Assembly: GCF_003387475.1 (NCBI RefSeq)
Contig: NZ_QUNO01000006.1
Span: forward strand, 124,001-188,000
Length of the DNA: 64,000 bases
Direction: 5' to 3'
DNA from: Kutzneria buriramensis
GTDB lineage: Bacteria > Actinomycetota > Actinomycetes > Mycobacteriales > Pseudonocardiaceae
In this document: piece after piece, positions 2,774-23,810 of the stretch
How the letters are laid out: the number at the start of each line of letters is the position of its first letter
Position numbering within the stretch: position 1 is the stretch's first letter
Notes under the pieces: generated by a model
Database searches by the model: none
Seen by the model: the letters and a program-made list of their open reading frames with translations, nothing else
Told to the model about the DNA's origin: nothing
Program-made: the position numbers and the translations under genes

Positions 2774-5700
2774 ATGATCCCGTTGTCCTTCGCGCAGCGC
2801 CGGCTGTGGTTCGTCGACCGCTTCGAGGGCCCGTCCGCGCTGTACAACCTCCCGTTCGTGCTGCGCATGACCGGCGAGCTCGACCTGACGGCCCTGCACG
2901 CCGCGATCCGGGACGTCGTGGCCCGGCACGAGAGCCTGCGCACGGTGATCGGCCAGGACGAGGGCGGCAATCCCTTCCAACGGGTGCTGCCGATCACGGA
3001 GGTGGCGCTGGAGCTGCCCGTGGTGGACGTCGCGGCGGACGGGGTGCGGGACGCGGTCACCGCCGCCGCCGTCCACCGGTTCGACTTGGCCGCCGAGATT
3101 CCCCTGCGCGCCACGGTGTTCCGGTGTGGCCCCGACGAACACGTGCTGGCGCTGGTGATCCACCACATCGCCACCGACGGCGAGTCGATGGCGCCGCTGG
3201 CGCGGGATCTGGCCACCGCGTACGCCGCTCGTCGGGACGGCGTGGCGCCGGCGTGGCCGGAACTGCCTGTGCAGTACGTGGACTACGCGCTGTGGCAACG
3301 GGAACTGCTCGGCGACGAGGACGACCCGGACAGCCTGCTTGCCGCGCAGGTGCGGTACTGGCGGACGGAGCTGGACGGCGTGCCGCAGCCGCTGCCGCTG
3401 CCCACCGATCGACCCCGGCCGCCGGTGGCCGGCCGACGCGGCGACATCGTGGAATTCTCGTTCGACCGGGAACTGATGACCGCGGTGGAGAAGCTGGCGC
3501 GGGAACGCGGCGCCACCGCGTCGATGGTGCTCCAGGCGGCGCTCGCGGTGCTGCTGCACCAGATGGGCAGCGGCGAGGACATCCCGATCGGGTCGCCGAT
3601 CGCCGGCCGCACCGACGACGACCTCGCCGACCTCGTCGGGTTCTTCGTCAACACCTGGGTGCTGCGCGCCGACCTGTCCGGGAACCCGACCTTCGAGCAG
3701 GTGCTGGACCAGGTACGGGGCAAGGCGCTCGCCGCGTACGACAACCAGGACGCACCGTTCGAGCGGCTGGTGGAGCTGGTCAACCCGGCACGGTCCACCG
3801 CATGTCACCCGCTGTTCCAGGTGATGTTCGCGTGGCAGAACCTCGTGCGGGAGGACTTCGAGCTCCGCGGGTTGCGCGTCACGCTCGAGCAGGCCGCCAC
3901 CGGCACGGCCAAGTTCGACCTCTTCGTCAACATGGCCGACATCCCCGGTCTGGGGGTGGTCGGCCACCTGGAGTACGCGACCGACCTGTTCGACCGCGGC
4001 ACGGTCGAGAAGCTCGCCGCGCGGTTCACCGCCGTCGTACGGCAGGTGGTGGCCGGACCGAGCCGTCGCATCGGACTGGTGGACGTGCTGGTTCCCGGCG
4101 AACGCGAACTCCTGCTGACCCGGCTGAACGACACCGCCGCGCCCACACCGGAAGCCACCATCCCCGAGCTCTTCGAACGGCAGGCGACCGCGACGCCGGA
4201 CGCCGTCGCACTCGTCGTCGGCGGCGAATCGTTGACGTATCGGGAATTGAACGCACGCGCCGACCGCCTGGCTCGGGAGCTCGCCCGGCGGGGAGCCGGA
4301 CCGGAGTCCGTCGTCGGCCTCGCGCTGCCGCGCTGCACCGACCTGGTGGTGGCGCTGCTGGGCATCCTCAAGGCCGGCGCGGGTTACCTCCCCATCGATC
4401 CGCGTTACCCGAGCGGACGGCTGGCCCACATCCTCGCCGACGCGGGTCCGTCGCTGGTCGTCACCAACGCGGATGCCGCGGCCGTGCTGCCCCAGGACGA
4501 CACACCGCGGCTGATGGTCGACGGGCTGGACCACACCGATCCGACGAGCCACGTCGCCCGGCCGAGGCCGGATCACGTCGCCTTCCTCATGTACACGTCG
4601 GGCTCCACCGGCCTGCCGAAGGGCGTGGCCATCACCCACCGCAACGTCGTGAACGGTGTGCTGCGGCTGATCGGGGTGACCGGCGCCGGCCCGAAGTCCC
4701 GGATGCTCGCGGGCACCTCGATCAACTTCGACGTGTCCGTCTTCGAGATCCTCAGCACGCTGTTCACCGGCGGCGCGGTCGAACTGCTGCGCGACGTGCT
4801 CGCGCTCGGCGAGCGTCCGACGTGGACCGGCACGGTGATCAGCTCCGTGCCGTCGGTGTTCGCCGAGCTGTTGGACCAGATTCCCGGTGAGATCGAGGCC
4901 GACACGGTGGTCTTCGGCGGTGACGCGCTGTCGGCCGCGCTGGTGCGGCGAGTGCGCGAGCGCGTCCCCGGAATCCGGGTGATCAACCCGTACGGGCAGA
5001 GCGAGAGCTTCTACGCCACCACGTTCACCGTGCCCGATGACTGGACCGGAACGGGTCGGGTGCCGATCGGCGCCCCGCTGGGCAACATGCGGACCTATGT
5101 GCTGGGACCCGGGCTCGTGCCGGTGCCACCCGGCGTGGTCGGCGAGCTGTACGTGGCGGGCGCGGTCGGTCGCGGATACCACGGTCGGCCGGGATTGACC
5201 GCGGACCGGTTCGTCGCGGACCCGTTCGGACCGGCGGGCGACCGGATGTACCGCACCGGAGACCTGGTCCGATGGACATCCGGGCACCAGCTCGAGTACG
5301 TGGGCCGCGACGACGCCCAGCTGAAGATCCGCGGTTTCCGGATCGAACCGGGCGAGGTGGAGGCCGCGCTCGTCGCGCATCCCCGCGTGGCGGAGGCGAT
5401 CACCGTCGTCCGCTCACGGCGCGGCACCGCGCAGCTGGTCGGGTACGTGGTTCCGGTCGACACCGGTGCGGGACGCGGCAGCGCCGACGGCCTCAATCCC
5501 GGTGCGTGGGTGTCGGCGACGGAGCTGCGGCGGTTCGTCAGCGGCCGGCTCCCGGAGTTCATGGTGCCGGCGGCGTTCGTGGTCATCGACCGGATGCCGC
5601 TGGACCCGAACGGGAAGGTGGACCGGTCCGCGCTGCCCGAACCGGACGTCACCGCCACGGAGTACCGTGGCCCCCGCTCGCCGCTCGAGGAGCACCTGAC

Positions 5701-8700
5701 CGCGGTGTACGCGGAGGTTCTCGGCCTGGACCGGGTGGGCGTCGACGACGACTTCTTCGCCGTCGGCGGGGACAGCATTCGGTCGATCCAGGTGGTGGCG
5801 CGGGCCCGGGCGCGCGGCGTCGAGGTCACCCCACGAGAGATCTTCGAATGCCGCACGGTGGCAGAACTGGCCGCTCGCGTGGACGGCCGGGCCACCACCG
5901 GCGTGCTGGCCGAGCTGGACGGTGGTGGCGTGGGATGGGCGCCGCTCCTCCCGGCCGCGCGATACCTGACCGAGTTCGGCGGCGGGATCGACCGGTTCGC
6001 GATGTCGGTCGTTGTCGACCTGCCGGCCGGCATCGACCACGCTGGCATCGTCGCCACGCTCGGTGCGGTGATGGACCGGCACGACGTGCTCCGTTCTCGG
6101 TTGTTGTCGGGTCCGGACGAAGGCCTCGTGGTGGGGCCGCCGGGGTCGGTCGACGTCGCCGAGCTTGTGCGCCGGGTGGGCTGTCACGGTAGGTGGGACG
6201 ACGAGTGGCTGCGAGTCGCCCGGGCGGAGCTGGACGCGGCGACGAAGCGACTCGACCCGGCCGCCGGCCTGATGGCGCAGTTCGTCTGGTTCGATCCGGC
6301 TGAAGCCGGTGCGGGCCGGTTGCTGCTGGTGGTGCACCACTTCGCCGTGGACGGGGTGTCGTGGCGCATCCTGCTGCCGGATCTCGCGGCCGCGTGGGAT
6401 CAGGTTCGGGTCGGTCGTTCGCCGGTGCTGCCACCGGTGGCGACGTCGGCCCGGCGCTGGGCGCACGCCCTGGCCGACCAGGCCCGATCGGCCGAACGGG
6501 TCGCCGAGCTGCCACTGTGGAAGTCCATTGTGGACGCACCGGATCCGCCGCTGGGCTCGCGTCCACTGGATCCCACGGTGGACGTGATGTCCACGGTGGA
6601 GCACCGGTGGGTCGAGCTGCCGGTGTCGACGACCGAGGCCCTCCTGACGACGCTGCCGACGGCGTTCCATGGCGGGGTTGACGACGGTCTGCTGGCCGGG
6701 CTGGCGCTGGCTGTGACCGCCTGGCGCCGGCGGCGAGGGGTGCACGAGCCCGCGGTCCTGGTCCGGCTGGAGGGCCACGGTCGCGCCGAGGACATCATGC
6801 CGGGTGCGGACCTGTCCCGGACGGTCGGCTGGTTCACCAGCATGTTCCCGGTCCGACTGGACATCGAGGACGCCGACCTCGACGACGCGTTGGCCGGCGG
6901 CGGCGCCGCGGACGCGATCGTCAAGTCGGTCAAGGAGCAGCTGCGCGCGTTGCCGGACAAGGGAATCGGGTACGGGCTGCTGCGGCATCTCAACGAGGAC
7001 ACCGCGTCCGTGCTGGGCGACCGGCCCGATGGCCAGATCGCGTTCAACTACCTCGGGCGCTTCTCCGCCGCGGACATGCCCGAGCACCTGCGAGGCCTGG
7101 GCTGGACCGAGGCCGCCGACACCGCCGACTGGATCTCGGTGCCGGACCCGGACCTGCCGGCGATGGCGACCATCGAGATCAATGCGCTGGTCGACGACGC
7201 CCGGGACGGGCCACGCCTGCGCGCGTTGTTCGGCGCGCCCACCGGCGTGCTCGCACCGGACGAGGTGCGGGAGCTCGCCGAGCTGTGGCTGATCGCGCTC
7301 GAAGCGCTGGCCCGGCGCGTCTGCGAGGCCGGTTCGGGCGGCCTGACCCCGTCGGACGTCCCGCTGGTGGCCGTGCGTCAACGGGAGATCGAAGCGTGGG
7401 AGAAGCGCTACCCAGGGCTGACCGATGTGTGGCCGCTGACTCCGTTGCAGTCCGGCCTGCTGTTCCACACGACGCTGGCTGGTGCGACGTCGGACGCGTA
7501 TCACGAGCAGTTGGTGCTGCACGTGTCCGGACACATCGACCCGGACCGGATGCGTCTGGCCGGGCAGGCGCTGCTCGACCGGCACGCGAGCCTGCGGGTC
7601 GCGTTCGTGCCCAACGCCATGGGCGACCTCGTGCAGCTCGTCGTCGACGACGTTCGACTGCCATGGCGTGGCGTCGACCTGAGCGAGTTGTCCCCGGAGG
7701 ACCGGACGGCGGCGTTCGAGCGGCTGCTCGCACGGGACCGGGAGGCCCACTTCGATCCGGCCGAACCGCCGCTGGTGCGGATGAGCCTGGTGCGGCTGGA
7801 GCCTGAAAGGTCCGAGCTGGTGTTCACGGCTCACCACGCGTTGTTCGACGGCTGGTCGATCCCGCTGATGATGCGCGATCTGCTGGACCTGTACGCGAAC
7901 GGCGCGGACGGTCACGCGCTGCCGCCCGCCCGCCAGTTCGGCGATTTCCTCACCTGGTTGTCCGAACAGGACGGTTCCGCGTCGACCCGGGCGTGGGCTG
8001 ACGAGTTGGACGGCGTCGACGAGCCGACGTTGCTCGCGCAGGATGCGGCGGGGGAGGAGAAACTCGCCGGCTTCGACGTTCCGGTGCCGGTCGAGCTGTC
8101 CCGCCGGCTGACTCGGCGGGCCGCCGAACTCGGCGTCACGCTGAACACCATCGTGCAGGGGAGCTGGGCCGTCGTGCTGGCCGGGCTCGCCGGACGTCAG
8201 GACGTCGTGTTCGGGAACACGGTGTCCGGCCGGCCGGCGGCGGTGCCCGGTGTGGACGCCGTGGTCGGACTGTTCATCAACACGCTGCCCGTGCGGGTGC
8301 GGTTCACCGCGTGGGACACGCTCCGACAGATGCTGAATCGGTTGCAGGACCGACAGAGCGCGTTGCTGGACCACCATCATGTCGGGCTGGCCGACATCCA
8401 GCGCGCAGTCGGCCTCACCTCGCTGTTCGACACCGTCGTCGTGTTCGAGTCCTACCCGTTCGATCAGGCCGGCATCGACGACGCCGGAGCCGAGGCGGGC
8501 ATTCGGATCACCGGCATCGGCTCGACCAACGGCACCCACTATCCGCTGGGCGTGGCGGTCGGCGCCGACCCCGACATCCAGGCGGCGGTGCAGTACCAGG
8601 AAAACCTGTTCGACCAGGACTTCGTACGAGACATCGCCGAGCGCTTCGTGGAGGTCCTACGGCAGGTGGCGGACGATCCCGACCTGCCGATCGGGCGGGT

Positions 8701-11197
8701 GGACGCCGCGGCCCGACGGGGCCTGCCGCCGGCCGTGCACGACCCCGCGCCGCAGGTGCCCGAGGACACGATCGCGGCACTGTTCGAACGGCAGGTGGCC
8801 GCGACCCCGGACGCCACGGCCGTCGTCTTCGAGGACCGCGTTCTGACCTACCGCGAGCTCGACGAGCAGGCGAACGGGCTGGCGCACACCCTGATCGGAC
8901 GCGGGGTGGGGCCAGAGTCCGTGGTGGCGGTGTCGCTGCGGCGGTCGCCCGAACTCGTCGTCGCCCTGCTGGCCGTCGCGAAGGCGGGTGGCGCATACCT
9001 CCCGGTGGACCACACCTATCCGGCAGCGCGCATCGCTTTCGTGCTCAAGGACTCTGCCGCCGGACTGGCGATTGTGGACGACGAAACCGAAGCGGCGATC
9101 GCCCAGAACTCGATCGCCACCTTGAGGGTTGAAGAGTCCCTAGTGGATGGTGAACCGGTGGCAAGTGCCGCGACGCTGGACAACACCGCCTACGTCATCT
9201 ACACGTCCGGCTCCACCGGCCGGCCGAAGGGCGTGGCGGTGACCCACCGCGGCGTGGCCGCGCTGGCCGCCGCGCACGTCGAACGGCTCGCGGTGACGCC
9301 GGAAAGCCGCATGCTGCAACTCGCCTCGCCGAGCTTCGACGTCTCACTGTGCGAGCTGTTCACCGCGCTGCTGTCCGGCGCCGCCGTTGTGTTGGCCGAC
9401 CTCGACCGACTGGCACCGGGGACTCCGCTGGCCGGGGTCATCGAGGCACACCGCGTGACCCACGCGATGATCCCGCCGGCGGTGCTGGACGTCATGCCAT
9501 CCGATGCGCTGACCACCGTGGTGTCCCTGGTCGTCGGTGGGGAGGTGACGTCGCCGGAGCTGATCGCGCGATGGTCGGCCGACCGCCGGATGGTCAACGT
9601 GTACGGCCCCACCGAGTCCACCGCCTCGGCCACCATGAGCCGGCCGCTCACGCCGGACGTCCGTGTCCCGCCGATCGGTGATCCCATCCCGAACACCACG
9701 GTGTACGTGTTGGACGCGGCCATGCGCCCGGTTCCGACCGGTGTGGCGGGGGAGTTGTACATCGCGGGTTCCGGTGTGGCGCGCGGATATCTCGGCCGGT
9801 CGGCACTGACCGCAGAGCGGTTCGTGGCCTGTCCGTTCGGCCGGCCCGGCGAACGCATGTACCGCACCGGTGACGTGGTCGCGTGGACTCGTGACGGCGA
9901 ACTGATGTTCCGCGGCCGCGTGGACGACCAGGTCAAGATCCGCGGCTTCCGGGTCGAGCCGGGCGAGATCGAGACCGCCCTCGCGGCGCACGCCGACGTG
10001 GACCGCGCCGTCGTGGTGGTGACCGACGACCGGCGTTTGGTCGGCTACCTGGTCCCGGCGGCCGGCCGGGCCGACGGGGTCGCCGAGCGAGTGCGGGAAC
10101 ACCTGGTGGAACGTCTTCCCGGTCACATGGTGCCGTCGGCGCTGATGCTCATCGACGATGTGCCGCTGACGCCCAGCGCCAAACTCGACCGCCGGGCCCT
10201 GCCGGCGCCCGACTTCGCCGCCCTGCCCACCGGTCGGGCCGCGCGAACTACGCAGGAGGACATCCTGTGCGGGCTGTTCGCCGAGGTGCTGGGTGTGCCG
10301 CGCGTCGGTATCGACGACAGCTTCGTGGCGCTGGGCGGACACTCCCTGCTCGCCACCCGGCTCATCAACCGGATCCGCACGGTGCTCGGCGTCGAACTGC
10401 CGATGCGGCTGGTGTTCCAGGCGCCGACCGTGGCGGAGCTGGCCGCCCATCTGGCGTCGGACGGGCGGTCGGCCGACACCGCCGATCCGTTCGCCGCGGT
10501 GCTGCCGATCAAGCCGGACGGGGATCGGGAACCGCTGTGGTGCATCCACCCCGGTGGCGGAATGTGCTGGGTGTACCTGGGTTTCGCCGCGTTGGTGCCG
10601 GCCGACCGGCCGGTTTACGGCGTGCAGGCGAAGGGCATCGACGGGCGGACGGCGCGACCCGGATCGCTCGACGAGCTGGTGGCCGACTACGTCGCCGAGG
10701 TGCTGCGGGTCCAGCCGGAGGGCCCGTTCAACCTGATGGGGCTGTCCATCGGCGGCACCATCGCCCACGCGATGGCCGCGGAACTGCGGCAGCGAGGCCA
10801 CGAGGTCGGGCTGCTGGCGCTGTTGGACAGCGTGCCGAGCACGTACCTCAACTCGATCGCGCCGCCCACGCCGACCGAGATCCGGGAGTACTTCGAGGAG
10901 CACTTCACCAGCCTCGTCGGCGCGGACGAGTACGAGTCCTTCGTGGCCAACGCCGTCGCGGTGGTGGTCAACCAGACGTCCCTGATGCCCGGATTCACCT
11001 CGCCGGTCTTCGACGGCGACGCGCTGTTCTTCGCCGCGGCGCCGAACGCCGGCGACGACTACGCCGAACTGTGGCGGCCGCACGTCCGCGGCGCGATCCG
11101 CCGGCACGACATCCGGAGCGCGCACGGCGACATGTACCTGCCGGGGCCGGCGGCGGAGATCTTCCAGGCCATCAACCGCGAACTCACGGGGGACTAG
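2774..11197 (+). CDS. NRPS, two modules with release: C-A-T-E-C-A-T-TE
   Basis: This 2807-residue synthetase extends and releases the peptide. Its domains are: condensation (HHIATDG at 130-136); adenylation 1 (YTSGSTG at 607, FDVSVFE at 652); carrier 1 (GGDS, Ser1001); epimerase ([10 protein letters not shown] at 1188 and an EGHGR motif); condensation 2 (HHALFDGWS at 1687, expected to take a D-configured donor); adenylation 2 (YTSGSTG at 2143); carrier 2 (GGHS, Ser2524); and thioesterase (GLSIGG, Ser2658). By eye, adenylation 1 reads D-V-F-S-V-G-P-Y-A-K, close to remembered piperazate codes of the DVFSVAAYAK type, and the epimerase would make this residue D. Adenylation 2 reads D-V-C-M-V-G-V-A-S-K, which I cannot assign. 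The start codon follows the previous stop without a gap, with AGGAG at about 2760. The terminal thioesterase makes this the last synthetase in the chain, releasing by cyclisation or hydrolysis. Confidence 0.95.
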
Positions 11198-11257: not shown

Positions 11258-12565
11258 ATGGACACACGTGGGTCGGAGACGTACGACGTCGTGGGCATCG
11301 GGTTCGGACCAGCCAACCTGTCGCTGGCCATCGCGCTGGAGGAGAGCCCGCAGCGGCTCACCTCCGCCTTCTTCGAGCGGCAGCCGTCGCTGGGCTGGCA
11401 CCGCGGCATGCTGGTGCCCGCCGCGAAGATGCAGGTCGCCTTCCTCAAGGACCTGGTCACGTTCCGGAACCCGACGTCGACCTTCAGCTTCGTGTCCTAC
11501 CTGCACGATCGGGGCCGGCTGGCGCGGTTCGTCAACAACCAGGACTTCTTTCCCACCCGCCGCGAGTTCCACGACTACCTAGAGTGGGCCGAGTCCCGTG
11601 TGTCGCACCGGGTGTCGTACCAGTCCGAGGTCACCGCCATGCGGCTGCCGTGCGCTCAGCGCCCGGGCGAGGACGACCACGTCGAGGTCGAGGTGCGCGA
11701 CCGCACCGCGCCCAGTGGGTCCCGCACTGTCGCCGCGCGCAACGTCGTCATCTCCACCGGGCTCGTGCCGCGCATGCCGGCGGGCCTGCAGACCGACGAA
11801 TTCGTCTGGCACAGCTCGGAGTTCCTGCACAAGTTCTCGCGAGCCGACCACAGCGGGCTGAAGCGGGTGGCCGTCGTCGGGGCGGGGCAGAGCGCCGCGG
11901 AGATCGTGCGGTTCCTCTACGACATGCTGCCCGACGCGAACGTGTTCGCGATCATCCCGTCCTACGGCTACTCCATCGCCGACAACACCCCGTTCGCCAA
12001 CCAGATCTTCGACCCGGCGGCGGTCGACGACTTCTACGCCGGGTCGGATCAGGCCAAGGACGCGATCTGGCGCTACCACCGCAACACCAACTACTCGGTG
12101 GTCGACGACGAGGTGATCAAGGACCTCTACCGGCGCCAGTACGACGACGATCTCGGCCGCCCCGGGCGGCTGGCCTTTCTCAACCTCTCCCGGGTCCTCG
12201 ACGTGAAGCGGGTCGGCGAGGACACGAGGGTCACGGTGCACTCGACGGCCACCGAGCAGGCCGCCGACCTCGACGTCGACGTGCTGGTCTGCGCCACCGG
12301 CTACAGCCCGATGGAGCCGGCCGACCTGCTCGGCGACCTGGCTCGGTACTGCGTCTACGACGGCGACGGCCGGTACCAGGTCGACCGCGACTACCGGCTG
12401 GTCACGCCGGATCTGGACTGCGGGATCTACCTCCAGGGCGGCACCGAGCACACCCACGGGCTGTCCTCGTCACTGCTGTCGAACATCGCGGTGCGCAGCG
12501 GCGAGATCGCCGCGTCGATCGCGCGCCGGCGGCTGTCCACCAACGGAAACGGAGTCCACGCATGA
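11258..12565 (+). CDS. ktzI: L-ornithine N5-monooxygenase (flavin), piperazate precursor enzyme
   Basis: A flavin- and NADPH-dependent N-hydroxylase of the SidA/PvdA/KtzI family that converts L-ornithine to N5-hydroxyornithine. The FAD loop is [14 protein letters not shown] near the N-terminus, the NADPH loop [10 protein letters not shown] is mid-protein, and the family C-terminal motif ATGYSP is followed by [15 protein letters not shown]. The whole protein looks very like KtzI of the kutzneride pathway as I remember it. In that pathway N5-hydroxyornithine is then cyclised to piperazate by the haem enzyme KtzT, which is not in this window. I chose the ATG at 11258 (AGAGGA seven bases upstream) because it gives the short family-like N-terminus; an in-frame ATG at 11201 is possible. 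The gene directly follows the synthetase and overlaps mbtH by ATGA. Confidence 0.93.
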
Positions 12566-12817: not shown

Positions 12818-14011
12818 ATGAGCAGCGTCGTCGACCGGTGGGACATCCACCCCGGTCACCCGTGGCTGCGCGGGCTGCGGCCCGAGCTGCCGGTCCAGTT
12901 CGACGAGAACATGGGCCTGTGGGGCGTCTACGGATATCAGGAGGCGTTCGACATCCTCAACGATCCGCGGACGTTCTCGTCGAGGACGGCGCACCTCGCG
13001 CCGATCACGTACGACGAGTCGCTGAACGACGGCGACCTGACCCAGATGGATCCCCCGGACCACACCAGGTACCGCAAGCTGCTCAGCCACGCGTTCACGC
13101 CGAAGGCCATCGCCGGGCTGGAGCCGCGCATCCGCGAGATCACCGCCGAACTGCTGGACGGGATCGCCGGCCGAGACCGGTTCGACCTGGTGACCGATCT
13201 GGCCTATCCGCTGCCGGTCGTCGTGATCTCGGAGCTGCTGGGCGTGCCGAGCAGCGACCGCGACCTGTTCAAGAAGTGGGCGTTCCGCATCATCGACGAC
13301 CTGAACGGGATGGCCTACCTCACCGGGGGCGAGGACGAGCAGAAGGAGGTCGACGAGGCGACAGCCGGCATCCAGCCGTTGCTCGACTACCTGCTCGAGC
13401 ACGTGCTGGAGCGGCGCAAGCGCCCCCGCGAGGACATGCTCAGCCAGCTCGCATCGGCCGAGGTGGACGGGGTTCGCCTGACCGACAACGAAATCGTCAA
13501 CATCGCGAACATCCTGCTCGTGACCGGGCACATCACCACGACCATGCTGCTGGGCAACACGATGGTGTGCCTCGACGCCTACCCGGACCAGGGAGCACGG
13601 GTGCGGGCGGATCGCTCTCTCGTGCCCACGGCGATCGAGGAGGCGCTGCGGACGCTCACCCCGTCGGCGGCGATGTCCCGGCGCACGACCCGGGACGTCG
13701 AGATCGGCGGGGTTGCCATTCCGGCCGACAAGATGGTCCTGGTGTGGCTGGGCGCGGCCAACCGCGACCCGCGGCAGTTCGCCGAGCCGGACGCGTTCGA
13801 CGCCGGCCGCGATCCGAATCCGCATCTCGGGTTCGGCCGTGGCATCCACTTCTGCATCGGCGCGCCGTTGGCCCGGCTGGAGGGTCGGATCGCGCTGAAC
13901 GCCCTGCTGGACCGCTATCCCGGCCTGGCCGTCGATCCGGCGGACCCGCCGGTGTTCTTCCCGTCCCCGGACATGATCGGCGTCCGCGGGCTGCCGCTCC
14001 GCGTCGGATGA
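12818..14011 (+). CDS. Cytochrome P450, tailoring or on-carrier oxidation
   Basis: A soluble class I bacterial P450 of 397 residues. It has ExxR (EALR, about 275-278) and the haem loop [11 protein letters not shown] with the iron-ligating Cys346. In the I helix the usual Ala-Gly-x-Asp/Glu-Thr reads TGHITTT (236-242), so the acid of the acid-alcohol pair is Ile239. The start has AGGGAG upstream. The stop codon overlaps the ATG of the adenylation gene (ATGA), which suggests oxidation of an amino acid activated by that enzyme, as proposed for P450/adenylation pairs in other peptide pathways (for example KtzM next to KtzN). It is clearly paralogous to the P450 at 20477. Hydroxylation or dehydrogenation of piperazate is plausible but not shown. 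Confidence 0.93.
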
Positions 14012-15516
14012 CGACCATCGCGGAGATGATCGAGCGGCAGGTCGCCTCCGCTCCCGACCGGGACGCCGTGGTCTGTGGCGACGTGGGCCTGAGCTACCGG
14101 GAGCTCAACCGCCGGGCAAACCGGCTGGCGCGTGCCCTCGTACGGGCCGGTGTCGGGCCGGAGTCGCTGGTGGGACTGGCTTTGCCGCGGTCGGCCGACC
14201 TCGTGGTGGCGTTGGTGGGCATTCTCAAGTCGGGGGCCGCGTATCTGCCGATCGATCCGCGGTACCCCAGCCGCCGGTTGCGGGTGGTGCTGTCCGAGGC
14301 GTTGCCGGACCTGGTGCTGACCGATGCCCGCACGGCGGGGGAGTTGCCGGTCACGGACGCCCCGCACCTGCTGCTGGACGCCCTGGATCTCGCCGCTCCG
14401 GGCCAGGAGGGCAACCTGGCCCAGGGCGAGCGCCTCTCGCCGCTGCGGCCGGGCAACATCGCCTACCTGATGTACACGTCCGGCTCGGCCGGGCGGCCTA
14501 AGGGCGTGGCCATCACCCACCGGAACGTCGCCAACGGGATCACCGCGCTGGCGCGGGTGATGGACGTGCGGCCGCGTTCCCGCGTGCTGGCCACCACCTC
14601 GATCAACTTCGACGTGTCCGTGTTCGAGGTGTTCACGGCGCTGGCCCACGGCGCGGTCGTCGAGGTGGTACGCGATGTGCTGGTGCTCGCCGAACGGACC
14701 GGCTGGACCGGCGACGTGGTGCACACCGTGCCGTCGGTGTTCGCCGAGATGCTGGACCAGATCGCTGGCAAGGTCCGGACCGACACGGTGGTGTTCGCCG
14801 GGGAGGCGCTGCCGGGGACGCTGATCGGGCAGGTGCGGGCGGCGCTGCCGGGGGCGCGGGTGGTCAACGCGTACGGGCAGACCGAAAGCTTCTACGCGAC
14901 CACGTATCGGGTCCCGGTGGACTGGGCCGGCACGGGCAGTGTGCCCATCGGCGTTCCGATCGACAACATGCGCGCCTACGTGCTCGACGCGAGGCTCGCG
15001 CCGGTTCCGCCAGGCGTGGCCGGCGAGCTCTATGTCGCGGGCGAGGTGGGGCGCGGTTATCACGGGCGGACCGGGCTGACCGCCGAACGGTTCCTCGCGG
15101 ACCCGTACGGCCCACCCGGGCATCGGATGTACCGCACCGGCGACCTGGCTCGCCGGAACGCGGACGGCGACCTCGAGTGCATCGGCCGCGCCGACTTCCA
15201 GCTCAAGATTCGCGGTTTCCGCGTCGAGCCGGCCGAGGTGGAGGCCGCCCTGGTGGCTCATCCGCAGGTGGCCGCGGCCGTGGCCGCCACCGGTCGCGGC
15301 AGGCTGGTCGGCTACGTCGTGCCGGCGGGCGCCGAGACCGTCGACGTGCGGGACCTGCGCCGCTTCGCGTCGGTGCGGCTGCCGGAGTACATGGTTCCGT
15401 CGGCGTTCGTCGTGCTCGATCGGCTTCCGCTGACCCCCAACGGCAAGCTCGACCGAGCCGCGCTGCCCGACCCGGCACGCGGCCGGGCAGCGGTGGACCG
15501 CGGAACTCAACCGTGA
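14008..15516 (+). CDS. Free-standing NRPS adenylation enzyme, piperazate-like code
   Basis: A 502-residue adenylation protein with all core motifs: [18 protein letters not shown], the NAYGQTESF region, YRTGDL and the A10 lysine motif [12 protein letters not shown]. It then ends within 20 residues, so it has no carrier domain and must load a carrier in trans. By eye the specificity residues are D-V-F-H-V-A-A-Y-A-K, differing from remembered piperazate codes mainly by His for Ser at position 278. The only stand-alone carrier in the window is at 21882, beside the halogenase. Loading of that protein would recreate the split CytC1-CytC2-CytC3 arrangement of cytotrienin. Rescue of a defective adenylation domain upstream (KtzN style) is the alternative. 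It is translationally coupled to the P450 before it. Confidence 0.92.
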
Positions 15517-15535: not shown

Positions 15536-16261
15536 TCACGCGTCGTGCGCGGCGCCGGCCGTGTGCGCGGCCGGGCCCACCGGCGTCCCGCCGCCGGCCA
15601 GCCGGACCGCCAGGCCGTCCAGGATGGTCTGGAGGCCGTACTCGAATCCGTTGTCCGCCGGCGCCTCGCCCTCGTCGTCCCAGTCCGCCATCCGGGCGCG
15701 CATCCGCGGGAACTGCATGGCGATCTCGGTGATCTTCTCCATCGACTCGTGCATCTGCTGCTGCTCGTCCGCGCTGCTCCGCCGCAGCCGCCGCTGCCAG
15801 GCCAGCTCGGCCGACTCGCCGAGGGCCCGGCCGAGAACGAACATGAACACGGTGTTCAGCGCCCAGTCGGCGTCCCGGCCGCTGAACCCGGCCGTCTCGT
15901 AGAGCCGGAGGCAGTGGTCGTCATGGCGGGCTTTCCTCGGGCCGTAGATGAGATGGGTGCTCATGGCGGGCACCAGCCACAGGTGCCGGTTGATCATCGC
16001 GTGCAGGCCGTGCGCCATCGTCGTGGCCGCGGTCCGCCAGTCCACCACGCCGAGATCGGGCAGCTCGATCTCGCTCCACACCTCGTCGCCGGCGAGCACG
16101 ACGAGGTTGTCCTTGCTCTGCACGTGCCAGTAGACGGCCGTCGCCGCGCAGTTGAGCCGTTTGCCGAGGGCCCGCATGTTCAGCCCCTCCAGTCCCTCGG
16201 TGTCCAGGACTTCGACGGCGGCCGACACGATCTGTTCCCGGGTCAGCGTTTCGCGAGGCAT
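15536..16261 (-). CDS. TetR-family repressor of the exporter operon
   Basis: A 241-residue one-component regulator. An N-terminal helix-turn-helix (LTREQIVSAAVEVLDTEGL, then MRALGKRL and AVYWHVQSKDNLV) is followed by a ligand-binding region like that of tetracycline-type TetR repressors. It is divergent from the ABC exporter genes and convergent with the adenylation gene, which fits autoregulation and control of export by the product or an intermediate. The ATG at 16261 gives the standard N-terminus MPRETLT; an upstream in-frame GTG at 16279 adds six residues. Repeated octamers in the divergent promoter region (16304-16350) are the likely binding sites. Confidence 0.9.
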   Translation of the reverse strand: MPRETLTREQIVSAAVEVLDTEGLEGLNMRALGKRLNCAATAVYWHVQSKDNLVVLAGDEVWSEIELPDLGVVDWRTAATTMAHGLHAMINRHLWLVPAMSTHLIYGPRKARHDDHCLRLYETAGFSGRDADWALNTVFMFVLGRALGESAELAWQRRLRRSSADEQQQMHESMEKITEIAMQFPRMRARMADWDDEGEAPADNGFEYGLQTILDGLAVRLAGGGTPVGPAAHTAGAAHDA

Positions 16262-16396: not shown

Positions 16397-17359
16397 ATGG
16401 CGATCCCCACACCGCCCCTGGCGATCTCGGTCGCGCAGTTACGCAAGTCCTTCGGCGAGCAGGTGGTGCTCGACGGCATCAACCTGTTCGTCGAGGAAGG
16501 CACGATCTTCTCGCTGCTGGGTCCGAACGGCGCCGGCAAGACGACCGTCGTGAAGATCCTGTCCACCCTGCTGGCCCCCGACGACGGCGTGGCGACCGTC
16601 GGCGGTCACGACGTGGTCCGCGAGCCGGACGCGGTGCGTGGGGCGATCGGCGTGACCGGCCAGTTCTCGGCCGTCGACCCCTTCCTCAATGCCGAGGAGA
16701 ACCTTCGCCTGATGGCCAGGCTGTGGCATCTGAGCCGCGCCGACGGCCGTCGCCGGGTGGCCGAGCTGCGCGAGCAGTTCGACCTGGGCGACACCTTCGC
16801 CAAACCGGCGCTCACCTATTCGGGTGGTATGCGGCGCAAGCTCGACCTCGCGATGACCCTGGTCGGCTCGCCGCGCATCATCTTCCTCGACGAACCGACC
16901 ACCGGCCTGGACCCGCGCAGTCGCCGGACGATGTGGCAGATCGTGCGCGATCTCGTGGCCGGCGGCGTGACGGTCTTCCTCACAACGCAGTACCTGGAGG
17001 AGGCCGACCAACTCGCCGACCGGATCGCCGTGCTCGACAAGGGCCGGCTGGTCGCCGAGGGCACCGCCGAGGAATTGAAGCGTCTCGTCCCTGGCGGGCA
17101 CATCGTGCTGCGGTTCGCCACGGTCGCCGACCTCGACCGGGCTGCCCGGGTGTTCGCCGGCGAGGGAACGCGTGACGACGACGAGCTCACGCTCCAGATT
17201 CCCGGCGACGGCAGCGTCCAGGCGCTCCAGGCGCTGCTCGGCCGGCTCAACAGCGCGTCGGTGACCGCGCAGAGCCTCTCGATCCACACCCCCGACCTGG
17301 ACGACGTCTTCCTCGCCTTCACCGATCAGGCGCGGCTGGAAAGGATGGTCCGCGGATGA
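16397..17359 (+). CDS. ABC exporter ATPase, DrrA type
   Basis: A 320-residue cytosolic ATPase that powers the permease encoded next. Walker A GPNGAGKTT (about 44-52), signature YSGGMRRKL, Walker B IIFLDEPTTGLD and the DrrA-like switch region TTQYLEEAD (Gln in place of the usual His) are all present. Members of this family export antibiotics from their producers, so self-resistance or product export is likely here. Leu15 is encoded by TTA (16439-16441), a very rare codon in this DNA and in streptomycetes a mark of bldA-dependent translation. The stop codon overlaps the permease ATG. Confidence 0.94.
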   Translation: MAIPTPPLAISVAQLRKSFGEQVVLDGINLFVEEGTIFSLLGPNGAGKTTVVKILSTLLAPDDGVATVGGHDVVREPDAVRGAIGVTGQFSAVDPFLNAEENLRLMARLWHLSRADGRRRVAELREQFDLGDTFAKPALTYSGGMRRKLDLAMTLVGSPRIIFLDEPTTGLDPRSRRTMWQIVRDLVAGGVTVFLTTQYLEEADQLADRIAVLDKGRLVAEGTAEELKRLVPGGHIVLRFATVADLDRAARVFAGEGTRDDDELTLQIPGDGSVQALQALLGRLNSASVTAQSLSIHTPDLDDVFLAFTDQARLERMVRG

Positions 17360-18180
17360 GCACTCTTCCCTACGCCGTCAGCGATTCCGTCACGTTGCTG
17401 GGGCGCAACCTCAAGCACATCCTGCGCTACCCGACCACCGCGGTCGCGGTCGTCGGCATCCCGGTCATCTTCCTGCTGCTGTTCGTCTACGTCTTCGGCG
17501 GCGCGCTGGGCGTCGCCGCTTCCGGCGCCGCGCACGGGAACTACGTCAACTACGTGGTGCCCGGGCTGGTCGCCATGACCACGGCCACGGGCGCCGTGGG
17601 CACCTCGACGTCGGTCAGCGTGGACATGACCGAGGGCATCGTCACCCGCTTCCGCACCATGGCCATCTTCCGGCCCGCCTTCCTGATCGCACGGGTCGTC
17701 GCGAGCATGCTCCAGACGCTGGTCAGCATCGCCCTGGTCATCGGGGTCGCGCTGCTGATGGGCTTCCGCCCGACCGGCAGCGCGGCCGGCTGGCTGGGTG
17801 CGATCGGCATCCTGGCGCTGATCTCGTTCGCGCTCACCTGGCTCGCCGTCGCGTTCGGTCTCACCGCGAAGACGCTGGACGCGGCCAGCAACGCGCCGTT
17901 CCCCCTCATTCTGCTGCCGATGATCGGCAGCGGCATCGTGCCGACCGACTCCATGGCGCCCGGCGTGCGGCAGTTCGCCGAGTACCAGCCGTTCACGCCC
18001 GTCATCGAGACGGTCCGCGGCCTGCTGATGGACACCCCGGTCGGCTCGAACTGGATCATCGCCGTCGGCTGGTGCCTCGTCATCACCGTCGCCGGATACC
18101 TCTGGTCGGTGCGGGCGTTCAACCGCGATCGGGCCAGCCAGGGCGGCGGCATGGCACAGGTCGGGGCCGCCGCCGGCTGA
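17356..18180 (+). CDS. ABC-2 type exporter permease, DrrB type
   Basis: A 274-residue inner-membrane protein with about six hydrophobic helices. The first (PTTAVAVVGIPVIFLLLFVY) is near residue 35, and the family region VSVDMTEGIVTRFRTMAI sits in the cytoplasmic loop after helix 2. It pairs with the ATPase encoded immediately upstream, with which it shares ATGA. With the TetR gene and the MMPL gene it forms an export and resistance block inside the biosynthetic cluster. Confidence 0.93.
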   Translation: MSTLPYAVSDSVTLLGRNLKHILRYPTTAVAVVGIPVIFLLLFVYVFGGALGVAASGAAHGNYVNYVVPGLVAMTTATGAVGTSTSVSVDMTEGIVTRFRTMAIFRPAFLIARVVASMLQTLVSIALVIGVALLMGFRPTGSAAGWLGAIGILALISFALTWLAVAFGLTAKTLDAASNAPFPLILLPMIGSGIVPTDSMAPGVRQFAEYQPFTPVIETVRGLLMDTPVGSNWIIAVGWCLVITVAGYLWSVRAFNRDRASQGGGMAQVGAAAG

Positions 18181-18276: not shown

Positions 18277-20430
18277 GTGCTAGGGCGCCTTGGGGGCTGG
18301 GTGGCACGCCACCCGTGGTGGACCATCGGCGGCTGGCTGGTCGCGGCCGTGCTGATCGTGCTGCTGGCGCCGCCGCTGCCAACCCAACCCAACCAGAGTC
18401 ATGAACTGTCCGACGACTACCAGTCGGTCCAGGTGGATCGCCTCCAGGAGCACGCCTTCCCCGGACGGCAGGAGGCGTACACCGGCGTGTACGTCATCCT
18501 GCGGCATCCCGGCGGCGGCTCCGTCACGGACGCCGACGTCGTGAAGGCGGGGCAGGTCGGCGACGCCCTGCGCGGCAAGAAGATCGTGTCGGTGACCGGG
18601 GTCGACCCCCAGACGACCGCGCCTGACCGCTCCCTGGTGTGGGTTCCCGTGCGGATGATCCGCAGCACGGTGGCCAGCGTGCTGGTGCAGCAGGCCGACG
18701 CGGTCACCCAGATCCGCGCCGCACTGCCGGAGCTGCTGGCCGGGAGCGATCTCCAGGCGAAGGTGGGCGGGGACGCCGCGGCCTACCTGGACGACTCGAA
18801 TTCGCTGAGCCAGTCGCTGTCCATCGTCACCATCGCCACCCTCGTGCTGATCATCGGGCTGATCCTGCTGATCTTCCGTGGGCCGCTGGCCGCGGTGCTG
18901 CCGATCATCGTGATCCCGGTGACCATGGAGGTCGCCCTCAGCATCGCCGCGATGGTCGCGACGCCGGCCAACCTGGTCTTCGACCAGAGTCTCCAGATCG
19001 TGGTGCTGATCCTCATGTTCGGCATCGGCGCGGACTACTTCCTGTTCCTGCTGTGGCGGTTCCGTGAACGCCTGCGTGCCGGCGACGACCGGGCGACGGC
19101 GCTGCGGTACGCGGTGGAACGGGCCGGTCGGGTCATCATCGGCACCGCGCTCACCACGATGGGGGCCGTCCTGGTGCTGCTACTGGCCTCCTTCCGCCTG
19201 TTCCAGGCGTGGGGACCAGCGCTGGCGATCGCCGTGGGCACGATGGCCGTCACCGCGCTGACCCTGATCCCGGCGCTGCTGCGGCTGCTCGGGCCGGCCA
19301 TCTTCTGGCCGTCCAAGGGCTGGCAGCGGCAGCCCAAGGGCCGGACTGCTGCCCGCCTCGGTCAGCTGGTGGCCCGCCGTCCCGCGGTGGTGGCGGTCGT
19401 GTCCGTCGCGTTGATGGCGGTGCTCGGCGCCGGCGTGTTCACGTTCAAGCTCAGCTACGACGTCCAGGGCGGATTCCCGACCGACACCGAGTCGTACCAG
19501 GCGCAGCAGCAGTTCGAGAAGGTCGTCCCGGGCGCTGCCGGCCTGAACTATCCGGCGGAGGTGATGCTGCGCAGCAAGGACGGGTCCCGACTCGGACCTG
19601 AGCAGTTGACCGCGTTCGTTGCCGCCGTCCAGCACCTGCCCGGGGTCGGGGTGGTCGAGCCGCCGTCGGTCGGCACCGCGGACCCCTCGGTGGCCCAGGT
19701 GGACATCCGGCTCCAGCAGGACCCGTTCTCCGACGACGCCATCGTCCACATGCGAGACACGTTGCGACCGGCGATTCTCGCCGCGGCCCCGGCCGGCACC
19801 AACGTTTACGTCGGCGGAATCACGTCCGGCTACGTCGACATCGACCACGCCACCCGGCGGGATCTGCCGGTGATCCTCGTGGCGGCGGCCGTGCTGATCG
19901 CCCTGATCCTGGCGCTCGTCGTGCGGTCACTGGTGGCCCCGCTGCTCCTGGTCCCGTCGGTGCTGCTCGGCTTCGCGGCCGCGCTGGGCGCGGCGGTCTA
20001 TGTGTTCCAGGACGCGCTCGACAAGCCGGGCCTGAACTTCCAGCTGCCGTTGCTGCTCTACCTTTTCGTGCTCGCCATCGGCACCGACTACAACATTCTG
20101 ATGGTCTCCCGCTTGCGGGAGGAGATCTCGATGGGGCATGGTCCGCGGGAGGCCGCGGGACGGGCCATCCAACACGCGGCGCCCATCGCGGCGGCGGCCG
20201 GTCTGATTCTCGCCGGCACGTTCTCGGTGATGTTGCTGGCGCCGGTCACCATGATGCGGCAGCTGGGGTTCTCGGTGGCGCTCGGCATCGCGATCAGCGC
20301 TTTCGTGATGGCGCCATTCCTCGTGCCGGCGCTCACCGTGCTGGTCGGCCGGGGATTCCTGTGGCCGTCCAAGGCCGCGCGTCAGCAGGACGGGCGCCAC
20401 ACGGATCGGCTGAGCATGGCCGAACGGTGA
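18277..20430 (+). CDS. MMPL-family (RND-type) membrane transporter
   Basis: A 717-residue membrane protein with the MMPL layout. It has an N-terminal helix (HPWWTIGGWLVAAVLIVLL), a periplasmic-type loop domain, a helix bundle with FGIGADYFLFLLWRFRE, a second loop domain, and a second bundle with AIGTDYNILMVSRLREE. Relatives export lipids, lipopeptides and other natural products using the proton gradient. The GTG start is preceded by GAGGAAT. It lies in the same direction as the ABC exporter genes, about 95 bases downstream, and probably shares their control by the TetR protein. It may be a second route for release of the peptide. Confidence 0.92.
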   Translation: MLGRLGGWVARHPWWTIGGWLVAAVLIVLLAPPLPTQPNQSHELSDDYQSVQVDRLQEHAFPGRQEAYTGVYVILRHPGGGSVTDADVVKAGQVGDALRGKKIVSVTGVDPQTTAPDRSLVWVPVRMIRSTVASVLVQQADAVTQIRAALPELLAGSDLQAKVGGDAAAYLDDSNSLSQSLSIVTIATLVLIIGLILLIFRGPLAAVLPIIVIPVTMEVALSIAAMVATPANLVFDQSLQIVVLILMFGIGADYFLFLLWRFRERLRAGDDRATALRYAVERAGRVIIGTALTTMGAVLVLLLASFRLFQAWGPALAIAVGTMAVTALTLIPALLRLLGPAIFWPSKGWQRQPKGRTAARLGQLVARRPAVVAVVSVALMAVLGAGVFTFKLSYDVQGGFPTDTESYQAQQQFEKVVPGAAGLNYPAEVMLRSKDGSRLGPEQLTAFVAAVQHLPGVGVVEPPSVGTADPSVAQVDIRLQQDPFSDDAIVHMRDTLRPAILAAAPAGTNVYVGGITSGYVDIDHATRRDLPVILVAAAVLIALILALVVRSLVAPLLLVPSVLLGFAAALGAAVYVFQDALDKPGLNFQLPLLLYLFVLAIGTDYNILMVSRLREEISMGHGPREAAGRAIQHAAPIAAAAGLILAGTFSVMLLAPVTMMRQLGFSVALGIAISAFVMAPFLVPALTVLVGRGFLWPSKAARQQDGRHTDRLSMAER

Positions 20431-20476: not shown

Positions 20477-21673
20477 ATGAGCGATTTCGCTGATCGTTGG
20501 GGTCTCAATCCGGCCCACTTCTGGCTGCGTGGCAAGGAGCCGGAGCGGATCGTCGAGCACGACGAGAAAATGGGCATCTGGAACGTCTACGGCTATCCGG
20601 AGGCAGCGGAGATCATCGGTGACCCGGTGACCTTCTCCTCCGACTCGTCGCGGCTGCTGCCGGATGCGGAGGACAAGGACGAGTACTCGGAGGGCGATCT
20701 CCTGCAGATGGCCGAGCCGGAGCACACCAATCTGCGCAAGCAGGTCGGCCGCGTGTTCAGCCCGGCCGCGGTGGCCAAGCTCGGCGCCCGGATCACGGAG
20801 CTCGCCACCGGGATCCTGGACGAGCTCGCCGGCCGCGACCGGATCGACCTGATCAAGGACTTCGCCGACCCGATGTCCGGCATCCTGTTCTGCGAGATCC
20901 TGGGCATCCCGCCCGGCGACCGCGAGCTGTTCCGGCTCATCCAGCAGTCGATCGACAGCCCCGTGCCGATCTCGACGGTGCCGCCCGAGGACGGCGAGGA
21001 GAGTTACCTCGAGGCCCAGCTGGCGCACCTCCAGCCGCTGCGCGAGCGACTCGCCGAACACGTCGACGGGCATCGCAAGAACCCGAGCGACGACCTGCTG
21101 GGGGTGCTCACCGGGCTCACCAAGCTCGACGGCACCGGCCTGAACGACAACGAGGTGACCAACTTCGCGATCATCATGCTCGGCGCGGGCCACCTCACCA
21201 GCACTGTCCTGATCGGCAACACCGGTCTGCTGCTGGACGAGTTCCCCGACCAGGCCGCGCGGGTGCGGGCGGACCGGGCGCTGGTGCCGAGCGTGATCGA
21301 GGAGTCGTTGCGCTTCCTCACCCCCGCCGCGGCCACCTACCGGGCCACCACGGCCGAGGTGAAGGTCGGCGACACGGTGATCCCCAAGGACCAGATCGTC
21401 CAGGTCTGGTATGCGGCGGCCAACCGCGACCCGCGCCAGTTCGAGCGCCCGCACGAGTTCGACCCGGGGCGCGACCCCAATCCGCACTTCGGGTTCGGCC
21501 GCGGCATCCACTACTGCCTCGGCGCCCACATGGCCCGGCTGGAGGGTCGCATCGTGTTCAACCTGCTGCTGGACCGCTTCCCGGCAATGCGAACCGACCC
21601 GGCCGACCCGCCGAGCTTTTTCGGCGCGCCGGACTTCATCGGCCTGCACTCCCTGCCGGTGCGCGTGAATTGA
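20477..21673 (+). CDS. Cytochrome P450, paralogue of the 12818 gene
   Basis: A 398-residue P450 with the ExxR motif (ESLR) and haem loop GFGRGIHYCLG (ligand Cys347). As in its paralogue the I-helix acid is missing: GAGHLTST (236-243) has Leu240 where Asp or Glu is normal. The two proteins share the same N-terminal pattern (RWGLNPAHFWLRG against [13 protein letters not shown]) and probably arose by duplication, one for each of two oxidations on the peptide or its precursors. GGAAGGA precedes the ATG. The gene is followed within ten bases by a strong hairpin, so it ends its transcript. Confidence 0.93.
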   Translation: MSDFADRWGLNPAHFWLRGKEPERIVEHDEKMGIWNVYGYPEAAEIIGDPVTFSSDSSRLLPDAEDKDEYSEGDLLQMAEPEHTNLRKQVGRVFSPAAVAKLGARITELATGILDELAGRDRIDLIKDFADPMSGILFCEILGIPPGDRELFRLIQQSIDSPVPISTVPPEDGEESYLEAQLAHLQPLRERLAEHVDGHRKNPSDDLLGVLTGLTKLDGTGLNDNEVTNFAIIMLGAGHLTSTVLIGNTGLLLDEFPDQAARVRADRALVPSVIEESLRFLTPAAATYRATTAEVKVGDTVIPKDQIVQVWYAAANRDPRQFERPHEFDPGRDPNPHFGFGRGIHYCLGAHMARLEGRIVFNLLLDRFPAMRTDPADPPSFFGAPDFIGLHSLPVRVN

Positions 21674-21881: not shown

Positions 21882-22169
21882 ATGTCGCAGGCGCAGATGA
21901 GTGACGAGACGGAACACGCGGCGGACAGGACCGAGATAGTGACGGCCGCGGTGGAGTGGTTGCGCACCGAGTTGAACGATCCCGACATCACCGGTGCCGA
22001 GAACTTTCTGGACGTCGGCGGTCATTCGTTGACGTTCTCGAAGCTGAACATCTTTCTCGGCGGCACGTTCGGCGCCGAGCTCGACAAGAAGCTCACCTAT
22101 GAGCGTTCGCTGAGCGAGGCGGTGGCCGGGATGACGCCGGTCGACCGACCCGAGACGATCGAGAAGTGA
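21882..22169 (+). CDS. Stand-alone peptidyl carrier protein
   Basis: A 95-residue carrier protein with the phosphopantetheine site in [12 protein letters not shown]. It has no fused adenylation or condensation domain, so its amino acid must be loaded in trans, probably by the adenylation enzyme at 14008, and modified while bound by the halogenase encoded ten bases downstream. I chose ATG 21882 because GAGGAGG (21866-21872) lies nine bases upstream; ATG 21897 is an alternative. The layout matches CytC2 of the cytotrienin system, a free carrier that presents its amino acid to an iron halogenase. Confidence 0.92.
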
Positions 22170-22179
22170 GGACAGCGTC

Positions 22180-23133
22180 GTGACGTCGAACATCGAGCGG
22201 ACAGATTTCGCTCTGAGTGCCGAAGAGCTGGACTTCTTCCGGGAGCGGGGCTACATCGGGCCGGTGACCGTCTACTCGCCGGACGAGATGGACGAGATCT
22301 GGAAGACGGCGCAGCGGCAGACGCTCGACCGGTCGCGCGCGGCGTACGCCGAAGAGGGCGCGATCGCCGGCACCACCAACATCGCGAACTATGACCGCCA
22401 CCTGGACGTCGACGCGCTGGCGCGCCACATCTGCAACCGGCGCATCATCGACCGCGTCGCGTCCATCCTCGGCCCGGACCTGCTGTGCTGGCGCAGCGAG
22501 TTCTTCCCCAAGTACCCCGGGGACGAGGGGACCGACTGGCACCAGTCCGACACGTTCGCCAACGCCAGCGGCAAGCCCCAACTGCTGTGGCCGGGGGAGT
22601 CGGAGGACGACTTCGGCGCCGGCACGCTCACCGTGTGGACCGCGTTCACCGACTCCACGCTGCGCAACGGCTGTCTCCAGATCATCCCGGGCACGCAGCA
22701 CCAGATGAACTACGACGAGACCAAGCGGATGGACTACCGGGCCGAGCAGATCAACCAGGAGACCAAGAACGGGATCCAGCGCGGCTTCTTCGGCTACGAC
22801 TACCGGCAGCTCCAGTTCGACCCGAACTGGAAGCCGAACGAGGACGACGCCGTGTCGCTGGTCATGGAGCGCGGCCAGTGCGTCATCTTCTGGTCCACCC
22901 TGATGCACGCGTCGCTGCCGAACGTCAGCTCCGGCAAGGACTATCGGATGGGTTTCGCGTCCCGGTACGTGCCCACGAAGGTGCGCATCTACCCGAACAC
23001 CGACCGCATCTACGAGTACGGCGGCAGCATCTCCCTGGACAAGTGGGGCGCGGTGCTCGTGAACGGCCGGGACGAGTACGGCCACAACAAGATCGTCACG
23101 GAGACACTGCTGGGCACGCCGTTCACGGCCTGA
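22180..23133 (+). CDS. SyrB2-like Fe(II)/2-oxoglutarate halogenase, variant HQS active site
   Basis: A 317-residue non-haem iron enzyme of the phytanoyl-CoA dioxygenase fold. From memory it is closely similar to SyrB2 along most of its length: [53 protein letters not shown] and [10 protein letters not shown]. SyrB2-type enzymes chlorinate an unactivated carbon of an aminoacyl carrier protein using O2, 2-oxoglutarate and chloride. The iron ligands here should be His121 and His243. The third position, Ala or Gly in known halogenases and Asp or Glu in hydroxylases, is Ser123. A halogenase is still the best call because no carboxylate ligand is present, but the reaction needs testing. The start is GTG; the gene lies between its carrier and a thioesterase. 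Confidence 0.88.
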
Positions 23134-23141
23134 GCCGGGTC

Positions 23142-23810
23142 ATGTCGGATGCACGCCCCGTCGTCGCCTTCATCCCGCCGTCGGGCTGCGGCGCCGGCTA
23201 CTTCCGCCGGGTGCTGCGGGCACTCGACGGCGTTGTCGAGTGCCGAGCGGTAGAGCTGCCCGGCCGAGGCCGCCGCTATCGCGAACCGCTCCTCACCGAC
23301 GCGGACCTTGCGGTGAACGACCTCGTGCAGCGGCTGGGCGGCCCAGTGGACGCGATCTACGGCGAGAGCCTGGGCGCGTACCTCGGGCTGGCGGTGGCGG
23401 CGTCCGTCGAGCAGGACCGCACCCCGGTCCTGCTCGCGGCGTCGAACGCCCCGCCGTGCGTGCGGGGCCCCGTCGGGACCGGCGAGGTGGATTCCGTCGC
23501 CGACGCCGTGGCCGGATTGGCGGCGCTGGGCGGTGCCAGCCCGTCGGAGGTGGTCGAGGATGCTCTTCCCTTGCTCCGCAGCGATCTCTACCTGTCCCGG
23601 TCGCTCATCACAGCGCTGTGCGGAGCGACGGTGAGTGCGAATATCTGGGTGCTCGCCGGTGAGCAGGATGCCGGGCTTGTCCGCCCGGAGGCGTGGGCTG
23701 AGCACACCACCGCGCAGACGACGATCATTCGCCTGACCGGCGAACACCTGCTGTCGGCGACGAATCCCGCCGGCGTCGCCCAGGTGGTGCAGAATGCGCT
23801 GGCTCAGTAG
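23142..23810 (+). CDS. Type II thioesterase
   Basis: A 222-residue alpha/beta hydrolase of the stand-alone NRPS thioesterase family, with FIPPSGCGAGYFRRVLRAL at the N-terminus, ELPGRGRR, the nucleophile motif YGESLGAY and a late His in LTGEHLLS. Such enzymes hydrolyse stalled or mis-primed chains. In the cytotrienin CytC4 system the partner enzyme releases the chlorinated amino acid from its carrier. Its position eight bases after the halogenase favours that second role here. I place the start at ATG 23142, since the longer frame runs back through the halogenase gene. Its 3' end overlaps the convergent DUF1707 gene by seven bases. Confidence 0.88.
   Translation: MSDARPVVAFIPPSGCGAGYFRRVLRALDGVVECRAVELPGRGRRYREPLLTDADLAVNDLVQRLGGPVDAIYGESLGAYLGLAVAASVEQDRTPVLLAASNAPPCVRGPVGTGEVDSVADAVAGLAALGGASPSEVVEDALPLLRSDLYLSRSLITALCGATVSANIWVLAGEQDAGLVRPEAWAEHTTAQTTIIRLTGEHLLSATNPAGVAQVVQNALAQ

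Follow-up and report, generated by a model that had tools for sequence, protein, structure and literature searches.

The window, the whole 64,000-nucleotide stretch of the Kutzneria buriramensis contig analysed here, encodes on its + strand a 317-residue SyrB2/KthP-type Fe(II)/2-oxoglutarate halogenase (22180..23133, GTG start; assigned by family profile, trees and alignment) in which the third-ligand/halide position is occupied by serine, within a His121-Gln122-Ser123 motif (22540..22548, + strand; codons CAC CAG TCC) that is both real and rare. We think it likely that this enzyme is the orthologue of KthP, a carrier-dependent Fe(II)/2-oxoglutarate halogenase that would chlorinate piperazate at C5, as suggested by its clade, its gene cassette, a free-standing adenylation (A) domain, KtzI- and KtzT-like genes and piperazate-type nonribosomal peptide synthetase (NRPS) modules, all in one cluster. 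It most likely departs from the textbook HX(A/G) rule without being an enzyme of a novel kind.

The HQS motif had been picked out in a sequence-only reading of this DNA, and both the window bases 22540-22548 (CACCAGTCC) and the translation of the open reading frame confirm it. That reading had also described the protein as strongly SyrB2-like, which agrees with its score of 438.5 bits against the NCBIfam model TIGR01762 ('chlorinating enzyme', cutoff 226.3) and with its identity to SyrB2 (62%) and CytC3 (58%) in a small alignment; Pfam PhyH matches as well, and SyrB2 (E 1.7e-131) and CytC3 (E 5e-126) are the top solved structures by sequence. Ser123 stands opposite SyrB2 Ala118 in the alignment, and SyrB2 residues H116, N123, T143, S231, H235, R248 and R254 are retained (this numbering presumes a chain offset of 3), H121, H243 and R262 of the window enzyme pairing with H116, H235 and R254. 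In SyrB2, H116 and H235 are the iron ligands and R254 is the 2-oxoglutarate arginine. A structure predicted from a 15-row alignment has a mean pLDDT of 75, and in a fold search it matches SyrB2 chains best; pLDDT is below 50 at residues 123-133, and the model is therefore uninformative on the Ser123 side chain. SyrB2 and CytC3, the best fold matches of the model, thus share both iron histidines with the window enzyme and differ from it in having Ala at the halide position; SyrB2 is described as acting on carrier-bound threonine and CytC3 on 2-aminobutyrate (PMC8407142).

SyrB2-type halogenases 'usually' have Ala or Gly at the third-ligand position, in the wording of PMC8407142, and because of that word, and because the apparent KthP gene also encodes Ser, we do not take Ala/Gly as defining the type. 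The window enzyme has neither of these residues there but Ser123, and it has the other features of a SyrB2-type halogenase: a TIGR01762 score above the cutoff, the two iron histidines and the arginine, no Asp or Glu at the third-ligand position, and a partner carrier. It is the single SyrB2-like match in its genome. A hydroxylase is rejected, since the residue two past the first His is Ser123 rather than a carboxylate-bearing Asp or Glu, and family and context argue against it.

Among 116 related loci (the best 80 of 227 relatives together with loci from among the matches listed), 108 read HQA at this position, seven HQV and only one HQS. These loci comprise the best 80 of 227 from a contig scan, eight from a search of the class, one from a search of Kutzneria sp. 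744 and 27 from a search of the family; they represent 108 distinct aligned sequences, and neither the copy in the window nor repeated hits to the HQS gene from Kutzneria sp. 744 are counted. The searches covered 394 genomes in the class, 390 in the family and 392 in the genus of G243, loci being taken from among the matches listed, and on the same basis 29 further loci from that genus are all HQA, although nine of these duplicate sequences already in the set. The peptide patterns of the contig scan omit residue 123, and the sampling was therefore neither for nor against Ser. The sole HQS locus, L008, belongs to Kutzneria sp. 744, of the same genus as the window genome; a search of seven genomes of this genus recovered both of its halogenase sites. 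Among open-licence papers we found none with a SyrB2 A118S variant, and among those listed none with HXS; HXS may still be reported elsewhere.

HQV is found at the same position in L089, L123, L124, L125, L126, L127 and L128 (seven of the 116 loci, ∼38-43% identity; outside this count, the genus of G243 has seven more matches of 40-43% identity). These loci constitute one side of a starred branch in a 109-row tree, and the TIGR01762 cutoff is passed by both members tested (two of the seven). With valine in place of Ala/Gly, this clade breaks the HX(A/G) rule in a second way.

In the 109-row tree the window protein groups with L008, L001-L006 and L102 in a nine-row clade (support 98/86, and 89/87 in a 20-row tree) that contains the two HQS proteins, from the window and L008, and seven HQA members. 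A check proposed earlier, that HXS proteins might form a clade, came out otherwise: the two HQS rows sit among HQA members with the same kind of cassette, and HXS as a separate functional clade is rejected. The two HQS halogenases are no closer to each other (74% identity by alignment) than to the HQA members of the clade (74-78%), and just two residues of the aligned part, Ser123 and Asp35, occur in both while being absent from the seven HQA members. Of 34 columns chosen as SyrB2 active-site or nearby positions, 28 are identical in all nine members; position 123 separates HQS from HQA, and 84, 86, 141, 150 and 254 vary in other ways. As judged from these alignments, the clade is a natural Ala/Ser contrast. 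The HQS proteins are unpaired in the 20-row tree, where two Ala/Ser changes are needed, and a tree constrained to pair them is not rejected (AU p 0.148); Ser123 may have arisen once or twice. Two further loci with the same cassette, L141 and L142 (75% identity), lie outside both trees.

The identity of the second HQS gene bears directly on what Ser123 permits. Kutzneria sp. 744 has two SyrB2-like matches, one HQA (L094) and one HQS (L008). The HQA gene, with an HQADN motif, has as neighbours an acyl-CoA-dehydrogenase-like gene and a free A domain, and a small carrier separates that A domain from the halogenase; this is the arrangement of KtzA/B/C/D. With such KtzA-, KtzB- and KtzC-like neighbours L094 is taken as KtzD, and therefore, by elimination only, the HQS gene (L008:7986-8948; positions 10,043,456-10,044,418 of the Kutzneria sp. 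744 record) is very probably KthP. The kthP gene reportedly lies 12 ORFs from the defined cluster; between the L008 cassette thioesterase and the KtzA-like gene, where the sequence contains runs of N, rough gene calling places eight genes, a spacing that neither proves nor excludes the reported distance. The KthP-like cassette adjoins an NRPS gene of C-A-T organization (L008:2431-5923) that has a piperazate-type code and is broken into two reading frames.

KthP (UniProt W7T5C7; PMC11705231) is reported to place the C5 chlorine on carrier-bound (thioester) piperazate (PMC11705231, PMC12615548). KtzD, as taken here, is of the same family as the window enzyme (55-56% identity) and differs in its HQA motif, its clade and its substrate, being described as chlorinating carrier-bound isoleucine en route to a cyclopropyl residue (PMC12615548). 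Alignment with KthP had been suggested as a check on the unusual motif, and the apparent KthP, identified by elimination, is itself HQS. Because this reported chlorinase appears to have the same motif, Ser123 is probably compatible with chlorination. The sequence-only reading had offered three consequences of Ser, of which an open halide site is favoured by the apparent KthP, and a weak oxygen ligand and a shift towards hydroxylation or another radical reaction are not.

It is nonetheless conceivable, if unlikely, that Ser123 alters the outcome, its hydroxyl binding iron or hydrogen-bonding the halide so that 5-chloropiperazate is made together with 5-hydroxypiperazate, or hydroxylation prevails. 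This would suit a residue that is one of only two setting the HQS pair apart from the seven HQA members, and the two Ala/Ser changes required by the best 20-row tree could mean repeated gain; set against that, Ser123 brings no carboxylate, and even with the SyrB2 triad rebuilt with Asp or Glu chlorination is described as abolished with no hydroxylation gained (PMC4019311). Natural products do contain both 5-hydroxy- and 5-chloropiperazate, but piperazate hydroxylation is reported for the P450 HmtN (both PMC11705231) and the window cluster has three P450 genes; the apparent KthP, with the same Ser, is reported as a chlorinase (PMC11705231, PMC12615548). We put little weight on the stronger form of this idea, in which Ser would have been tuned in the piperazate chlorinases of Kutzneria, perhaps after two separate gains, with its hydroxyl contacting halide or iron, C5 chlorination and hydroxylation partitioned by one enzyme, and HXS marking dual-outcome halogenases. 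A partial shift to hydroxylation is possible, and nothing in this analysis supports it.

The proposed piperazate chlorination by a KthP orthologue draws further on the surroundings of the gene. A carrier at 21882 had been noted previously, and there is indeed a stand-alone 95-residue carrier protein with a GGHS motif directly upstream of the halogenase (21882..22169, + strand), which is without a Pfam match at the threshold used; a thioesterase follows (23142..23810, + strand; PF00975, E 4.5e-9). The L008 cassette around the Kutzneria sp. 744 HQS gene has the same order, with identities of 56% for the carrier, 74% for the halogenase and 57% for the thioesterase, and in all nine clade members the halogenase is immediately preceded by a small carrier and followed by a thioesterase. 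A gene termed antiporter-like, on the basis of a sub-cutoff match of the window genome's copy to the CPA2 model, adjoins the cassette in eight of the nine (after it in seven, before it in L008); the relative in the window genome does not adjoin the cassette, lying ∼40 kb upstream. On the − strand, a gene resembling a TetR-type regulator by eye (15536..16177) is 48% identical to one located 1.8 kb downstream of the cassette in Kutzneria sp. 744.

Genes for making and activating piperazate are close by, a context that the sequence-only reading did not recognise, along with the free-standing A domain at 14008-15516. An L-ornithine/L-lysine N-monooxygenase resembling KtzI, presumed to catalyse the first step to piperazate, is encoded at 11258..12565 (+ strand; PF13434, E 8e-107), and a KtzT-like protein is encoded outside the window, 35 kb upstream of the halogenase (contig C6:110572-111261), with the KLSQ motif described for piperazate synthases (PMC10888640). 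KtzT homologues are present in all nine clade genomes as compared with none of five sister handles, although the two groups differ in taxonomy and two of the five (L007 and G758) are one genome, leaving four distinct genomes; at the same threshold the background is 23 of 150 genomes for the family and 34 of 199 for the genus of G243. Counting L141 and L142, 10 of 11 genomes have a homologue, on the same contig and within 63 kb in seven (the window genome, L003, L004, L005, L006, L008 and L102), on another contig of a draft assembly in L001 and L002, and ∼530 kb from the cassette in L141; the L142 genome is without a KtzT match. KtzT was likewise not found in the genomes of five more distant relatives (63-64% identity). 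The genome of G400, of the same genus as the window genome, encodes a KtzT homologue (C1:1021234-1021893, 61% identity) but gave no SyrB2-like match at E 1e-40.

The free-standing A domain (14008..15516, + strand; 502 residues) has no carrier domain that we could find, and its code, DVFHVAAYAK, is of piperazate type. A-domain codes were read by eye from an alignment, the last K of this one being assumed; applied as a control to an A domain from the ktz stretch of Kutzneria sp. 744, this way of reading gives DVFSVGPYAK, the published piperazate code of KtzH-A1, that of HmtL-A1 being DVFSVAAYAK (PMC9866976). A DVF-type code lies near the cassette at nine of 11 orthologue loci (the window genome, L001, L002, L004, L005, L008, L102, L141 and L142). 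A motif scan that included extended flanks revealed no piperazate-type A domain at L003 and L006, two loci that do have matches to A domains (34-46% identity) and to KtzI (66%).

At the left end of the window is the 3′ part of an NRPS gene that starts before it (1..2773, + strand), encoding the larger part of an A domain together with methyltransferase and carrier domains, followed by an NRPS gene of C-A-T-E, C-A-T-TE organization (2774..11197, + strand) whose first A code, DVFSVGPYAK, equals that published for KtzH-A1, and whose E domain is deduced from a third condensation-type match and motif order. Three NRPS genes together make six modules (A-T-E, C-A-T; C-A-T-E, C-A-MT-T; C-A-T-E, C-A-T-TE, with E domains placed by motif order), of which three have piperazate-type codes. 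Also on the + strand are cytochrome P450 genes at 12818..14011 (56% identical to a P450 called in the Kutzneria sp. 744 ktz stretch) and 20477..21673, a two-gene DrrA/DrrB-like ABC exporter (16397..18180) and an MMPL-family exporter (18277..20430). Outside the window, at C6:102815-104446 (window -21185 to -19554), is a protein that shares 75% identity with one of the two tryptophan halogenases of the ktz stretch, followed by an antiporter-like gene and a flavin reductase; the predicted peptide may therefore also carry chlorotryptophan.

Taken by its genes, the window looks like part of a chlorinated-piperazate hexapeptide cluster. With clusters of the kutzneride and himastatin types it has in common a KtzI/KtzT-like pair, piperazate-type A codes and P450 genes, and with the ktz stretch also the tryptophan halogenase relative; it differs in its own order of six modules and codes. 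The apparent KthP region is alike in its HQS motif, cassette order and KtzT-like gene. It is distinguished from the window cluster by the latter's three piperazate-type NRPS modules and free-standing piperazate-type A domain, by one called P450 gene in the ktz stretch as opposed to three, and by a KtzA-/KtzD-like second halogenase set of Kutzneria sp. 744, of which neither the window genome nor the scanned 136 kb yielded a counterpart.

A less probable alternative still is that the halogenase serves this cluster by acting on another carrier-bound amino acid, such as a hydrophobic one or threonine, the latter being a possible substrate in the sister rows. A domains near L007, L009 and L010, which are sister rows, have the threonine-like code DFWSVGMVHK, and with KtzT not matched in the L142 genome and ∼530 kb away in L141, piperazate may not be every member's substrate. 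For the window enzyme, on the other hand, the only A domain outside the three NRPS genes in 136 kb (motif scan) is the piperazate-type one at 14008-15516, the cassette is ordered as in Kutzneria sp. 744, and the cluster also contains the KtzI- and KtzT-like genes. L142 itself (G1011) combines a cassette whose halogenase is 75% identical with a DVF-type A domain and no KtzT, and may have another piperazate source or another substrate. As for sequencing or assembly error, with GCC misread as TCC, the Ser codon is one base away from an Ala codon, but the same nine bases, CACCAGTCC, recur at this site in the independently sequenced Kutzneria sp. 744 gene, whose protein is only 74% identical, and we reject this explanation as exceedingly improbable.

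The favoured route, then, is one in which the KtzI-like monooxygenase (11258-12565) would N-hydroxylate ornithine and the KtzT-like synthase (C6:110572-111261) would close N-hydroxyornithine to L-piperazate, both by homology, after which the free-standing A domain (14008-15516) would activate piperazate and load it onto the carrier (21882-22169). By analogy with SyrB2 and KthP, His121 and His243 of the halogenase would bind Fe(II), Arg262 would help to hold 2-oxoglutarate, and chloride would occupy the site beside Ser123, where hydroxylases have Asp or Glu, Ser123 being proposed as a tolerated neighbour of the chloride. The chloro-ferryl would take hydrogen from C5 and give back chlorine; the thioesterase (23142-23810) would free 5-chloropiperazate, and an NRPS module would put it into the six-module peptide.

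The HX(A/G) rule is usable for sorting halogenases from hydroxylases in genome data. With HXS in the very probable KthP and in its likely orthologue in the window, an HX(A/G) filter would therefore miss true halogenases, and because the nine-member clade keeps its other catalytic residues, the role of position 123 is directly testable by comparison of its Ala and Ser members.
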